49,223 bases of DNA from Verrucomicrobiota bacterium (lineage in GTDB: Bacteria; Verrucomicrobiota; Verrucomicrobiia; Chthoniobacterales; UBA10450), in NCBI GenBank assembly GCA_003218535.1, contig QHNV01000042.1:1-49223 (forward strand). Reading direction: 5' to 3'. This document shows positions 1,628 to 27,174 of this stretch, piece by piece (within the stretch, counting starts at the first letter, position 1; every line of letters begins with the position of its first letter). The position numbers were made by a program, and so were the translations under genes. Below the pieces are notes generated by a model. That model saw nothing but the letters and a program-made list of their open reading frames with translations, was not told the origin of the DNA and made no database searches.

Positions 1628-1645
1628 CTCGCGGGATTTTCGTTC

Positions 1646-1699
1646 GGGAGCGCAAGTGCCTTGCGTGCTGGCGATGACGCTCTCGTCCTCGCGAAACTT
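1646..1699. repeat. partial/degenerate copy of the dnaE2 palindromic element (left part)
   Basis: gggagcgcaagtgccttgcgtgctggcgatgacgctctcgtcctcgcgaaactt resembles the left half of copies 1 and 2. Confidence 0.6.
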
Positions 1700-20624: not shown

Positions 20625-21704
20625 ATGGAACGGCAGATGGAGGTCCAGGAGATCCTGGTGATCCTGCACAAATGGGGGATTCATAGGCTGGGGCAGATGG
20701 CGGCGCTTGATAAGGAGCAGCTTGGGGCGCGACTTGGCCCCGAAGCAATCCGAATGTGGGAGCGGGCAAATGGGCGATCCAGCAGAGTGCTCAAGCTGGT
20801 GCGGCCGCCGGAGTCATTTGAAGAGAGCTTCGAATTTGAAAATGAGATTGAAACAGCCGAGCCACTCCTTTTCATGTTGCGACGTTTTTTGGAGCAGCTT
20901 GCAGTGCGGTTGGGCGCAATCTATCTCGTTGCAAAAGAATTGACCCTGCGCATCACGTTCGCGAATCCGCCACAGGACGGATCCGCCGTGGCGGACAAAC
21001 AGATTTACGAGCGGGTTTTCACAATTCCGCAGCCGACCAACGACGTCGATCTTCTGTTCCGAATGCTGCACACGCATTTGGAGAATTTTCGATCCGAACA
21101 TCCGATCGTTGCTGTCGCGCTGAACGCGCAGCCGATCAAACCCGTCATGGAACAATTCGGATTGTTTGAAACCACCTTACGCCACCCGCATCAATTATCA
21201 GAAACGCTCGCGCGTTTGATCGCTCTTGTCGGCGCTGCTCGAGTTGGCACCCCGGTTTTGGAAGAGACCCATCGGCCCGACGCATTTCGGATGGAGCCAT
21301 TTTCGTGGAATTTCGACCCTGATGAATTCCCTCACCGCCGCGCTGCCGCACGCGCGCCTCTCCCTGAGGGAGAGGATGGAGGTGAGGGTCATCGACGTTT
21401 AAAAACAGTTTCCAAACTCAGAGTTGCCCTGCGCCGATTTCGGCCGGCCACACCGGCATCAGTCTTGTTAGATGAAGACAAGCCCACATATGTTTGCAGC
21501 TCAGAAATTCGGGGGAAAGTCATCGAACAGCGAGGCCCTTATTTGATTTCCGGAAACTGGTGGGACGAAAAATCGTGGGTGTGCGCAGAGTGGGACTTGG
21601 AACTGGAGAATGGAGGACTGGTTCGCGTTCATGAAAGCCCGCCTTCGCCAAATTCTGGCGGGGTAGGCGAGGGAACATGGAAGGTGGATGGGATTTATGA
21701 TTGA
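20625..21704 (+). CDS. imuB: ImuB C-terminal half (HhH + little finger + C-terminal domain), separate 359-aa gene
   Basis: QEILVILHKWGIHRLGQMAALDKEQLGARLG; EFENEIETAEPLLFMLRRFLEQLAVRL; clamp-motif-like QFGLF; THRPDAFRMEPF; C-terminal GPYLISGNWWDEKSWVCAEWDLELENGGLVRVH...WKVDGIYD. In-frame TAA four codons upstream of ATG. Confidence 0.85.
   Translation: MERQMEVQEILVILHKWGIHRLGQMAALDKEQLGARLGPEAIRMWERANGRSSRVLKLVRPPESFEESFEFENEIETAEPLLFMLRRFLEQLAVRLGAIYLVAKELTLRITFANPPQDGSAVADKQIYERVFTIPQPTNDVDLLFRMLHTHLENFRSEHPIVAVALNAQPIKPVMEQFGLFETTLRHPHQLSETLARLIALVGAARVGTPVLEETHRPDAFRMEPFSWNFDPDEFPHRRAAARAPLPEGEDGGEGHRRLKTVSKLRVALRRFRPATPASVLLDEDKPTYVCSSEIRGKVIEQRGPYLISGNWWDEKSWVCAEWDLELENGGLVRVHESPPSPNSGGVGEGTWKVDGIYD
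21329..21388. repeat. 60-bp palindromic repeat, in frame within the C-terminal imuB gene
   Basis: CCCTCACC...CCTCTCCCTGAGGGAGAGG...GGTGAGGG: outer 8-bp and inner 9-bp inverted arms; 60 bp = 20 codons. Confidence 0.75.
21637..21673. repeat. CCCGCCTTCGCCAA...GGCGGG repeat near the 3' end of the C-terminal imuB gene
   Basis: cccgccttcgccaaattctggcggggtaggcgagg; related sequence in moaE near 27115-27150. Confidence 0.6.
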
Positions 21705-21712
21705 CGATCGGA

Positions 21713-21805
21713 GTCATCCTGAGCGGAGCGCAGCGAAGTCGAAGGATCCCGCGGAATTACCTTTAAGCTCGACCACAGGATTCCTCGACTTTGCTCGGAA
21801 TGACA
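21713..21805. repeat. paired inverted-arm repeat abutting the dnaE2 start codon
   Basis: GTCATCCTGAGC...GAAGTCGAAGGATCC ... GGATTCCTCGACTTTGCTCGGAATGACA; related to copies at 41992-42021 and 48265-48353. Confidence 0.75.
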
Positions 21806-24800
21806 ATGAGCTACATCGAGTTACATACTTGCAGCGCGTTTAGCTTTTTGCGCGGCGGTTCGTTCCCCGAGCACTTAGCTGAAACAGCAGCGGAACTTGA
21901 AATGCCGGCGATGGCCTTGCTGGATCGCAATGGCGTTTACGGTGCACAACGATTTTCCATCGCTGCACGCGAACACAACGTGCGGCCGATCATCGGGTGC
22001 GAATTGTCAATGCAAGATGGCAGCATTTTGGCTGTGCTGGTTGAAGATCGCAGAGGTTACAAAAATTTGTGTGAGCTGCTGACCCAGGCGCATTTGCGCA
22101 GCGAGAAAAGCAAATGCGCAGTGCGATGGGACGAACTGCCGCAATTTGCGGAAGGCTTGGTTGCGCTCTTCGGATTGGGGAGCGCACGGGTCTCGCGTGC
22201 TGGCGAGGGCGTCCTCGCCATCGCGAACTTTTCCGGACGCGCGAAATCGATGATGACTCGCAAATCGTCAGAAAGATTGTTTCGGCGCGACGCGGAAACC
22301 AGCACGCGGGACGCGCGCCCTTCCCAGAATTTCGCAGACTGCGCCAAACTGCTGATTGGTACGTTCGGCCGCGAAAATGTTTTCGTAGAAATCCAGCGGC
22401 ATTTCGTTCGTGGCGAGGAACGCATCAATCGCGAACTGATCGATCTGGCACGTGCGAATCAATTATCGCTCGTCGCCACCAATGGCGTACAATACGCAAA
22501 ACCCTACGGGCGCGAGGTGCTGGATGTTTTCACCTGCATCCGCGAACACACTCATCTCGATGACGCGGGGAAATTGTTAACACAAAATGCTGAGCGCCAT
22601 CTGAAGAGCGAGCGGCAAATGCGAGCAATTTTCGCGGATTTACCGGAAGCGATTGAAAACACTTCACGCCTAGCGGAGCGGCTCACATTTTCGCTTGAGA
22701 ATCTCGGATATGAATTTCCCGAATATCCGGTGCCGGCCGGTCATACCATGGATTCATTTTTGCGCACTATCGTGTGGTTCGGCGCGCAACAGCGTTACGC
22801 CGCGGTCAGCCCAAAAGTGAAGCATCAGCTTGAAGAAGAACTTGCCCTTATCACGAAACTCGGGTTTGGCGGTTATTTTTTGATTGTCTGGGACATCATC
22901 AATTTCTGCCGCGAGCACAACATCATGGTCCAGGGCCGGGGCAGCGCTGCCAACAGTGCGGTTTGTTATTGCCTGGGGATCACGCCGGTTGATCCGGTGA
23001 GCACTCATCTGGTGTTCGAACGTTTTTTAAATGAGAGCCGCAAAGGCTGGCCGGATATCGATCTCGATCTTCCCAGCGGCAATCGTCGCGAAGCGGTGAT
23101 CCAGGAAATTTATCGCCGTTACGGCAAACACGGCGCCGCAATGACTGCGAACGTGATCAGTTACCGCGGACGCAGCGCGGCGCGCGAGATTAGCAAGGCG
23201 CTGAATTTTTCGCCGAGCGTCATTGACCGGTTCTCGCACCTGTTCGCGAACGGCGATTTCCCGCACACGTTGGAATTGGAAGCGCAAATCGAAGCGGCCG
23301 GTCTGCCGAAAGATCATCCGCGGATGCCTGCATTCGTCAGGTTGTATCACGCGATCTACGGCTTGCCGCGACACCTCGGTCAGCATTCGGGTGGGATGAT
23401 CATTTGCCAGAATAAACTTAGCTGGTTTGTGCCGCTGGAAAACGCGTCAATGCCCGGGCGGGTTGTGGCTCAATGGGACAAGGACGATTGCGAAGACCTC
23501 GGCATCGTGAAGGTGGACTTGTTAGGCCTCGGTATGATGTCGGTAATGCAGGATGCGTTTGAGTTGTGTCAGCAGCGCGAACGTCCCGACAGGTCGGGAC
23601 TCGATCTGGCACATATTCCGAAAAACGACGAGAAGACGTTCGAGATCATGCAAAGCGCCGACACGATCGGCGTATTCCAAATCGAAAGTCGCGCCCAAAT
23701 GGCCACCTTGCCGCGGATGAAACCAGAATGTTTTTACGATGTGGTGATCGAAGTGGCGATTATTCGGCCCGGCCCGATCCAAGGCGATATGGTGCATCCT
23801 TATCTGGCGCGTCGCGCTGGGAAGGAGCCGGTGACCTATTTCGATGATCGGTTGAAGCCAGTCCTCGAGCGCACCCTTGGCGTTCCGTTGTTTCAAGAGC
23901 AGATGCTCAAGATCGCAATGGTGATGGCGGATTTTTCCGGTGACGAAGCGGAAGAGTTACGCCGCGCACTGAGTTTCCACCGTTCAGAAGAACGGATGAA
24001 TAAAGTCTGCGCGAAATTGCGCGCGGCGATGGAACGCAAAGGCGTTGCGCCGGACAAGATCGACAAAATCATTCAATCGATCTCGTCGTTCGCCCTTTAC
24101 GGGTTTCCCGAATCGCACGCGATCAGTTTCGCCATTCTCGCTTACGGCAGCGCATATTTGAAAGTGCATCGCGCGCCGGAATTTTATGCCAGCTTGTTGA
24201 ACAATCAGCCGATGGGTTTCTACACTCCGGCGACGATTGTAAAGGATGCGCAGCGACACGGACTAAAAATTAAGCCGGTTTGCGTCGCGCATTCCGGTTG
24301 GCGTTGCACCGTAGTGGATGACAACACAGTGCGACTCGGACTTTGCGTAGTAAACGGATTGCGACAGGAACACGCCGATGAACTCGTTAGGCAACGGCTG
24401 GATCGACAATTCGAGTCATTGGAGGATTTCAAGCGCCGCGTCCCGCTTGCAAAAGACGAATTGCGCACATTAGCGGAGTTGGGAGCGTTGAATTGTTTTG
24501 CCCCACATCGCCGCGCGGCGATGTGGGACGTGGAAGAAACAATACATGATGACCTTCTGGGGAGCGTACTCATCTCGCGTGCTGGCGAGCGCGTCCCGCG
24601 ATCGCGAACTTTTCTTCTTCCGCACAGGCCCTCCGAATCTGATTGTGGGCAAAGCATGTTTCGGCGCGACGCCGAAACCAACACGCGGGACGCGTGTGCT
24701 ACTCAGAAACCGGAATCTCCCCTTGCGCCGATGACCTTACCCGAGCGCGTGAAGGCAGACTACGAGACGATGAATCTGACGACCGGGCCGCATCCGATGA

Positions 24801-25144
24801 AGCTGTTGCGGAAAAGTTTGCCGAACATTTGGCGGGCGAGCGATCTCGTTCACGCCCGGCACGGTTCGATCATTCAAATCGCCGGCAACGTCATTTGCCG
24901 GCAGCGTCCCGGCACGGCGAAAGGATTTGTTTTTATCAGCCTCGAAGATGAGACCGGCGTTTCAAATGCAATTGTCGAGCCGGACTTGTTTGAACGCTTT
25001 CGACTCGTGATCACTGAAGAAGCGTTTCTGCTCATCGAAGGCGAAGTACAGAATTCAGAAAACGTCGTTTTGATTAAAGCGCGCGAGATCAGCCCGCTCG
25101 CGCACGAACAACTCATCGGGAGCGAATCGCACGATTTCCATTAA
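21806..25144 (+). CDS. dnaE2: error-prone DNA polymerase DnaE2/ImuC
   Basis: MSYIELHTCSAFSFLRGGS; VQGRGSAANSAVCYCLGITPVDP; FERFLNESRKGWPDIDLDLPSGNRREAVIQEIYRRYG; FQEQMLKIAMVMADFSGDEAEELRRAL. Confidence 0.95.
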   Translation: MSYIELHTCSAFSFLRGGSFPEHLAETAAELEMPAMALLDRNGVYGAQRFSIAAREHNVRPIIGCELSMQDGSILAVLVEDRRGYKNLCELLTQAHLRSEKSKCAVRWDELPQFAEGLVALFGLGSARVSRAGEGVLAIANFSGRAKSMMTRKSSERLFRRDAETSTRDARPSQNFADCAKLLIGTFGRENVFVEIQRHFVRGEERINRELIDLARANQLSLVATNGVQYAKPYGREVLDVFTCIREHTHLDDAGKLLTQNAERHLKSERQMRAIFADLPEAIENTSRLAERLTFSLENLGYEFPEYPVPAGHTMDSFLRTIVWFGAQQRYAAVSPKVKHQLEEELALITKLGFGGYFLIVWDIINFCREHNIMVQGRGSAANSAVCYCLGITPVDPVSTHLVFERFLNESRKGWPDIDLDLPSGNRREAVIQEIYRRYGKHGAAMTANVISYRGRSAAREISKALNFSPSVIDRFSHLFANGDFPHTLELEAQIEAAGLPKDHPRMPAFVRLYHAIYGLPRHLGQHSGGMIICQNKLSWFVPLENASMPGRVVAQWDKDDCEDLGIVKVDLLGLGMMSVMQDAFELCQQRERPDRSGLDLAHIPKNDEKTFEIMQSADTIGVFQIESRAQMATLPRMKPECFYDVVIEVAIIRPGPIQGDMVHPYLARRAGKEPVTYFDDRLKPVLERTLGVPLFQEQMLKIAMVMADFSGDEAEELRRALSFHRSEERMNKVCAKLRAAMERKGVAPDKIDKIIQSISSFALYGFPESHAISFAILAYGSAYLKVHRAPEFYASLLNNQPMGFYTPATIVKDAQRHGLKIKPVCVAHSGWRCTVVDDNTVRLGLCVVNGLRQEHADELVRQRLDRQFESLEDFKRRVPLAKDELRTLAELGALNCFAPHRRAAMWDVEETIHDDLLGSVLISRAGERVPRSRTFLLPHRPSESDCGQSMFRRDAETNTRDACATQKPESPLAPMTLPERVKADYETMNLTTGPHPMKLLRKSLPNIWRASDLVHARHGSIIQIAGNVICRQRPGTAKGFVFISLEDETGVSNAIVEPDLFERFRLVITEEAFLLIEGEVQNSENVVLIKAREISPLAHEQLIGSESHDFH
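22177..22320. repeat. ~144-bp palindromic element, copy 1, in frame in dnaE2
   Basis: ggggagcgcacgggtctcgcgtgctggcgag...cgcgaacttttc...tttcggcgcgacgcggaaaccagcacgcgggacgcgcgccc; terminal arms GTCTCGCGTGCTGG / CCAGCACGCGGGAC. Confidence 0.8.
24559..24700. repeat. ~142-bp palindromic element, copy 2, in frame in dnaE2
   Basis: ggggagcgtactcatctcgcgtgctggcgagcgcgtcc...atcgcgaacttttc...tgtttcggcgcgacgccgaaaccaacacgcgggacgcgtg; matches copy 1 at both ends. Confidence 0.8.
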
Positions 25145-26730: not shown

Positions 26731-27174
26731 TTGAAGCTTATGGCAAATCCGGTTTGCGAAGTTTTAGTGACCGAAGCACAGCTTAGAGCGCCACCGATTG
26801 ACGTCGATCCAAGCGCAGGCGCAGCGGTTGAATTTTGGGGAATTGTTCGTGGCTCCGAGGATGGGCGCGAAATCGATGGAATCGAATACGAAGCGCATCG
26901 GGAAATGGCAGAACATCAATTGAAAGGAATTGCCGCGCAGGTTCTGGAAAAATTCGGGCTTACCCTCGTTATCATCCATCACCGAATTGGATTTATCCCT
27001 GTTGGGGAACCATCGTTATTCGTGCGGGTTTGTAGTTGCCATCGGAAAGAAGGATTTTTAGCCAGTCAATGGGTCGTAGAGGAGTTGAAGCAAAAAGTGC
27101 CGATTTGGAAACGGCCCGCCTTCGCCAAGGCTACGGCGGGGCAGGCCCCGGTAACGAGTGTAACGACGGAATGA
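26731..27174 (+). CDS. moaE: molybdopterin synthase catalytic subunit MoaE-like, C-terminus altered by a repeat
   Basis: AAVEFWGIVRGSEDGREIDGIEYEAHREMAEHQL; IIHHRIGFIPVGEPSLFVRVCSCHRKEGFLASQWVVEELKQKVPIWKR. Confidence 0.9.
   Translation: MKLMANPVCEVLVTEAQLRAPPIDVDPSAGAAVEFWGIVRGSEDGREIDGIEYEAHREMAEHQLKGIAAQVLEKFGLTLVIIHHRIGFIPVGEPSLFVRVCSCHRKEGFLASQWVVEELKQKVPIWKRPAFAKATAGQAPVTSVTTE

Follow-up and report, generated by a model that had tools for sequence, protein, structure and literature searches.

REPINs are REP doublets that form a hairpin (PMC3116915) and are moved by RAYT, or TnpA-REP (PMC3116915, PMC8266576). RAYT-associated REPs are marked by a tetranucleotide tag (PMC8266576, PMC6006769), which is usually GTAG and is given as GT[AG]G in PMC6006769. 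Classical REPINs lie mostly between genes, and intragenic REPs have been published as well: Di Nocera 2013 (PMC3733652) reports that DnaE2, UvrA and further repair genes contain REPs and REP dimers in frame, names Opitutus terrae (Verrucomicrobia) as the genome with the most intragenic GTAG REPs, and reports different REPs at about the same site of two Xanthomonas recB genes. The dnaE2 insert described below therefore belongs to a known class. For the intragenic GTAG and CGTC REPs, the accessible text describes neither a succession of occupants at fixed sites across tens of species nor a RAYT in frame in a host protein; it is in these two respects, turnover at fixed sites and RAYTs in frame inside MetH, RecG, AlaRS, LeuRS and IspG, that our results go beyond PMC3733652.

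The window, a stretch of 49,223 nucleotides from an uncultured soil bacterium of the Verrucomicrobiota (2.69-Mb assembly, 90% complete), carries on its forward strand dnaE2, which encodes an error-prone DNA polymerase III alpha subunit (21791..25144, a 1117-aa open frame that likely starts with the ATG at 21806). Pfam analysis of the product revealed PHP, DNA_pol3_alpha, finger, HHH_6 and OB-fold domains. The initial annotation had placed an in-frame miniature palindrome with inner hairpins at 22177-22320, in the PHP region. The element and its inner hairpins are indeed present, but its right end had been set a few bases short, since the arms reach 22176 and 22326. Within this span of the forward strand (22176..22326), about 50 residues (GSARVSRAGEGVLAIANF...LFRRDAETSTRDARPSQ) are encoded in frame in the PHP domain. 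The left REP (22176..22203, +) consists of a GGAG tag (22179-22182) and the hairpin GCACGGGTCTCGCGTGC (22184-22200), and it is followed by the second hairpin of the left half, TGGCGAGGGCGTCCTCGCCA (22201..22220, +), detected as a self-match on the opposite strand. The right half contains its own second hairpin, GTTTCGGCGCGACGCGGAAAC (22279..22299, +), recovered by the repeat search, and ends with the inverted REP (22299..22326, -), whose tag has degenerated to GAAG. The repeat search gave arms of 28 nt with 82% complementarity and 95 nt between them, and copy 1 folded as single-stranded DNA at -47.6 kcal/mol (z -3.7 against dinucleotide shuffles).

The initial annotation had also claimed another site within dnaE2, and this was confirmed as copy 2 (24558..24705, +; matched to copy 1 as far as 24708), located in frame in the HhH/OB-fold linker near the C-terminus. 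Aligned from end to end, the two copies are 74% identical (E = 9e-20); the fold of copy 2 is likewise more stable than dinucleotide shuffles (z -3.0), and neither copy contains a stop in the dnaE2 reading frame. In an AlphaFold2 model of DnaE2 built with 46 orthologues (mean pLDDT 80), pLDDT fell below 50 at residues 122-168 (copy 1) and 912-963 (copy 2), by far the longest such stretches of the protein. Both inserts are thus predicted by the model to be disordered loops, consistent with their being tolerated.

BLAST search of the assembly with a 161-bp copy 1 query showed that the element, as the initial annotation had expected, is repeated: 47 matches were obtained, to be read as roughly 25-30 places because both strands of a palindrome match, and the next-best full-length copies of this family (family A) scored E values of 2e-23 to 8e-16, which indicates repetition far beyond chance. 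Nearly all genomes used in this work are draft or metagenome-assembled, a point in favour of an assembly artefact, but independent copies at E down to 2e-23, and the same sites filled in about 50 separately assembled genomes, make an artefact, or chance palindromes in GC-rich DNA, vanishingly unlikely. One intergenic half-element lies in the window itself (1643..1695, +, 79% identity over 53 nt). In each half of a family-A element the order is a GGAG or GTAG tag, a hairpin of the type GCACGCGTCTCGCGTGC, a second hairpin and a spacer. Among the source-genome loci listed, the tag preceding family-A-like stems was GGAG in 22 of 36 and GTAG in 6, together 28 of 36. CT beside the tag, the cutting place of the E. 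coli TnpA-REP, is enriched only modestly (44% vs 18% background).

Copies 1 and 2 accordingly have two inverted REPs that fold into one hairpin, a tetranucleotide tag at the hairpin foot, of which GGAG is a variant of the usual GTAG, and many dispersed relatives. A RAYT flanked by REPs of the same family was found on contig C205, with the stem variant GCCTCG; the 90% complete assembly yielded no RAYT with GTCTCG, the exact stem of copies 1 and 2. Extragenic location, which is typical of REPINs and not structural, does not apply to copies 1 and 2 or to a copy in uvrA, the other copies being intergenic; we do not count this against membership, because intragenic REPs are already published (PMC3733652). 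We therefore read copies 1 and 2 as REPINs, RAYT-type, non-autonomous elements of family A. They share with the REPINs of PMC3116915 and PMC8266576 two inverted tagged hairpins, a variable spacer, dispersed copies and a RAYT flanked by the family, and differ from classical ones in their in-frame location in conserved genes, in having two hairpins per half and in their mostly GGAG tag.

The initial annotation had likened the element to the Rickettsia RPEs. As an analogy this is fair, given that RPEs are likewise in-frame, repeated and palindromic and occur in housekeeping genes, among them, according to PMC3733652, replication and repair genes. As an identity it fails: RPE-4 and RPE-6 are described there as CGTC-tagged and as having no dedicated transposase, and they belong to an unrelated lineage, whereas the elements studied here have the GGAG/GTAG tag and hairpin of RAYT-associated REPs and a RAYT flanked by family A. 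We consider homology to the Rickettsia elements scarcely credible.

Family-A copies outside genes were about as open in six frames as dinucleotide shuffles, suggesting that the element is not built to code and that the in-frame copies are what remains after selection on the host gene. A special coding design of family A was rejected on the same comparison. Long frames running over the copies in L002, L005, L009 and L020 resemble extensions of genes on their upstream side and were left out of the in-frame inserts.

To compare the two dnaE2 sites, a scan of named genomes supplied 80 DnaE2 orthologues, about 50 of them with >70% identity; these close orthologues come mostly from soil Verrucomicrobia, including Candidatus Udaeobacter. 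With families defined by hand-made stem patterns and a few labels corrected by eye, site 1 was occupied in 40 of 47 close orthologues by 9 families and site 2 in 44 of 48 by 10 families, and no stop occurred inside any site segment. The segment first reported is thus not conserved in all DnaE2 orthologues: occupants differ by family, and judged from the aligned sequences what the orthologues share is the site, not the element. The clean insertion that had been anticipated is only partly seen, since at site 1 the loop of the outgroup (LTGDEEGPL...) was replaced as well as interrupted.

On a tree calculated without the insert columns, at least 23 changes of occupant are required at site 1 and at least 28 at site 2, only slightly fewer than the means for shuffled labels (28.1 and 33.2, respectively). 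Leaving aside families I and G, most occupants have a G[T/G]AG-tagged stem of at least 6 bp at one or both ends, compared with about 5% per end in shuffled controls. Family I at site 2 and one family G occupant at site 1 lack this tag, so not every occupant is a REPIN. Several short forms of the sites are REP scars: L052 retains GGTAGCGCGTGCGCTACCC, for example, and L048 no more than a right end. Among the matches listed, counted on both strands and in genomes related to each other, genomes with family B in dnaE2 had a median of 24 other B matches vs 0 in those without (Mann-Whitney p = 1.5e-5); the corresponding value for family A, also among the matches listed, was p = 0.013. The dnaE2 sites hence more often hold families that are abundant in the same genome.

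Turnover of this kind might be only apparent if each dnaE2 site held one ancient palindrome whose interior was overwritten, by recombination or gene conversion, with elements sharing GGGGAGC...GCTCCCC termini. The first 6-8 bases are indeed common to families A, B, C and D, and GGATTGGGGAGC is the left flank of several families at site 1. Such termini are absent, however, from families E, F, I, J and K, which nonetheless fill these loops and have other flanks there. Moreover, single positions in RecG and MetH are found empty in some cases and filled with a whole RAYT in others. Overwriting is therefore unlikely. It is also conceivable that the inserts are selected parts of DnaE2, such as peptides tuning the polymerase or partner binding, in that the sites are filled in almost every close orthologue and always open, and REPs recur in DNA-repair genes of other phyla (PMC3733652). 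But the insert peptides are unrelated between families and occur in both orientations, they are predicted by AlphaFold2 to be disordered, and family-A copies outside genes are no more open than expected, so that we regard a selected function as very improbable. Repeated replacement of mobile palindromes in two tolerant loops is the reading that we retain.

UvrA provides a further case. A family-A REPIN lies in frame at a UvrA loop in the source genome and in G002, whereas in the other readable orthologues the same anchors are separated by about 29 ordinary residues. Part of the loop was replaced by the insertion, which parallels dnaE2 site 1. In a separate observation (L232-L259), the UvrA frame of the clade was often about 2000 aa long and matched the query a second time, more distantly, a picture resembling a fusion of two UvrA copies.

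The source genome contains six Y1_Tnp matches, one of which (C205:12662-12928) lies between family-A REPs. This RAYT shares a 1564-aa frame with S-methyl_trans, Pterin_bind, B12-binding and Met_synt_B12 domains and thus lies in frame inside the methionine synthase MetH (C205:9701-14392). Further on in the same metH gene there is a second in-frame palindromic element (NPGSTPVPGVGAVVPAARTS...GGRDAYASQ). Assignment of the embedded enzyme as a RAYT follows from a Pfam Y1_Tnp match above the cut-off and from the HUH motif (H-x-H) and the catalytic tyrosine (YI..NP), both kept in the aligned copies. Relatives of the MetH RAYT were found in 24 of 35 clade genomes, most in long frames. The states of the MetH linker could be read in only a minority of the clade, the anchors often not being in one frame.

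At least 15 of the relatives are inside RecG, between APTQILAEQH... and IIVGTHALL. In a set that includes one genome outside the clade, this site carries a RAYT in 17 genomes and a REPIN alone in 1, and is empty in 9; the RecG tree requires at least 15 changes of state. In the RAYT tree, sequences flanked by the same REP family fall together, and the two main RAYT kinds share one RecG position. In each group the RAYTs have a pN/pS ratio of about 0.2, measured with synonymous sites close to saturation; the embedded RAYTs are thus under purifying selection, and the enzyme has been kept functional. Two assemblies contain two recG copies each, one empty and one with a RAYT (G030, contigs C178 and C12; G014, contigs C129 and C334), which represent either a paralogue or a mixed assembly.

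Outside the clade, this RAYT type was matched in 10 of 289 sampled Verrucomicrobiota genomes, with hosts that include RecG, AlaRS, LeuRS, IspG and a PLP-dependent decarboxylase. Including one clade genome, a RAYT in one frame with a host domain was recorded at eight loci (L189, L191, L193, L194, L196, L197, L198 and L151; AlaRS, LeuRS, PLP-dependent decarboxylase, IspG and carbamoyl-phosphate synthase), the clade locus being L151, where the RAYT precedes the carbamoyl-phosphate synthase domain and is known from the downstream side alone. Free-standing RAYTs seem to exist as well, at L195 and in a few clade copies whose frames measure 220-271 aa, indicating that embedding is common and not universal.

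Inteins with homing endonucleases offer a parallel: they too carry a DNA-processing enzyme in frame within an essential protein, and their sites alternate between an empty and an occupied state. The embedded RAYTs share these two features and differ in being HUH tyrosine transposases with REP ends; neither a Hint splicing domain nor a Pfam intein was found among the Pfam matches of the RAYT-bearing proteins. In three genomes (G099, G189 and G303; 94, 99 and 98% complete, respectively) the interrupted AlaRS, in one open frame, is the only AlaRS found. Removal of the inserts after transcription or translation, leaving host proteins with none, would easily explain this, but besides the missing intein and Hint domains, the dnaE2 region matched nothing in Rfam at E up to 1, and the frame is always kept although removal at the RNA level would not need it. 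We give such removal next to no chance, and the inserts are presumably translated and left in the host protein.

We have good confidence in the following explanation as a whole, namely REPINs in tolerant DnaE2 loops with an in-frame REPtron as their partner. A REPIN, with two inverted GGAG/GTAG-tagged REPs and a spacer, would have inserted in frame in the PHP loop of DnaE2, and a second member would have settled in the linker near the C-terminus. Both loops would act as tolerant landing sites at which in-frame inserts survive; insertion itself is probably random, the inserts being retained there because they are tolerated and not because the loops are targeted. Inserts would decay by internal deletion to short REP scars, and would give way to palindromic families that are active in the genome concerned. 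As their autonomous partner we propose the REPtron, a RAYT gene bounded by REPs of these families; in the clade and elsewhere in the phylum this gene lies in frame inside RecG, MetH, AlaRS, LeuRS and IspG. REPINs would then be non-autonomous relatives of REPtrons, probably moved by RAYT catalysis, and the two would fill an intein-like niche with no sign of splicing.

A broader proposal, which we favour only slightly over its negation, is that a RAYT lineage of the Verrucomicrobiota lives inside essential or housekeeping proteins, translated as an insertion domain of RecG, MetH, AlaRS, LeuRS or IspG, while REPINs turn over at fixed DnaE2, UvrA and RecG loops, together an intein-like refuge without splicing. 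With such host proteins, imprecise loss of the RAYT would be lethal or damaging to the bacterium. Should the embedded RAYTs be translated as part of RecG, MetH or AlaRS, the transposase would be protected and expressed by the host gene, and would be a source of new domains in essential enzymes. No prior report of a RAYT inside RecG, AlaRS, housekeeping genes or host proteins was found in the open-access literature. Unexpectedly long TnpA-Y1 proteins were discarded as fusions or annotation errors in PMC6006769, so embedded RAYTs may have been overlooked. In-frame REPs have so far been reported genome by genome; the two DnaE2 loops record which mobile palindrome was active in each of about 50 species, and allow the origin, decay and replacement of REPINs to be measured directly.

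Some further repeats were observed near dnaE2. A palindrome of another family (TCATCCTGAGCG...CGGAATGAC; 21712..21806, +), predicted to form a hairpin, lies between the upstream frame and dnaE2, and its relatives are the family I occupants of dnaE2 site 2 in other species. The frame 5′ of dnaE2 (20625-21704) encodes a putative ImuB-like protein without the N-terminal half and contains the repeat-like stretch APLPEGEDGGEGHR. Finally, the frame from 26731 ends with a repeat-like tail, RPAFAKATAGQAPV (about 27036-27174 of the window), the DNA of which is also read, in another frame, by an overlapping frame at 27036.
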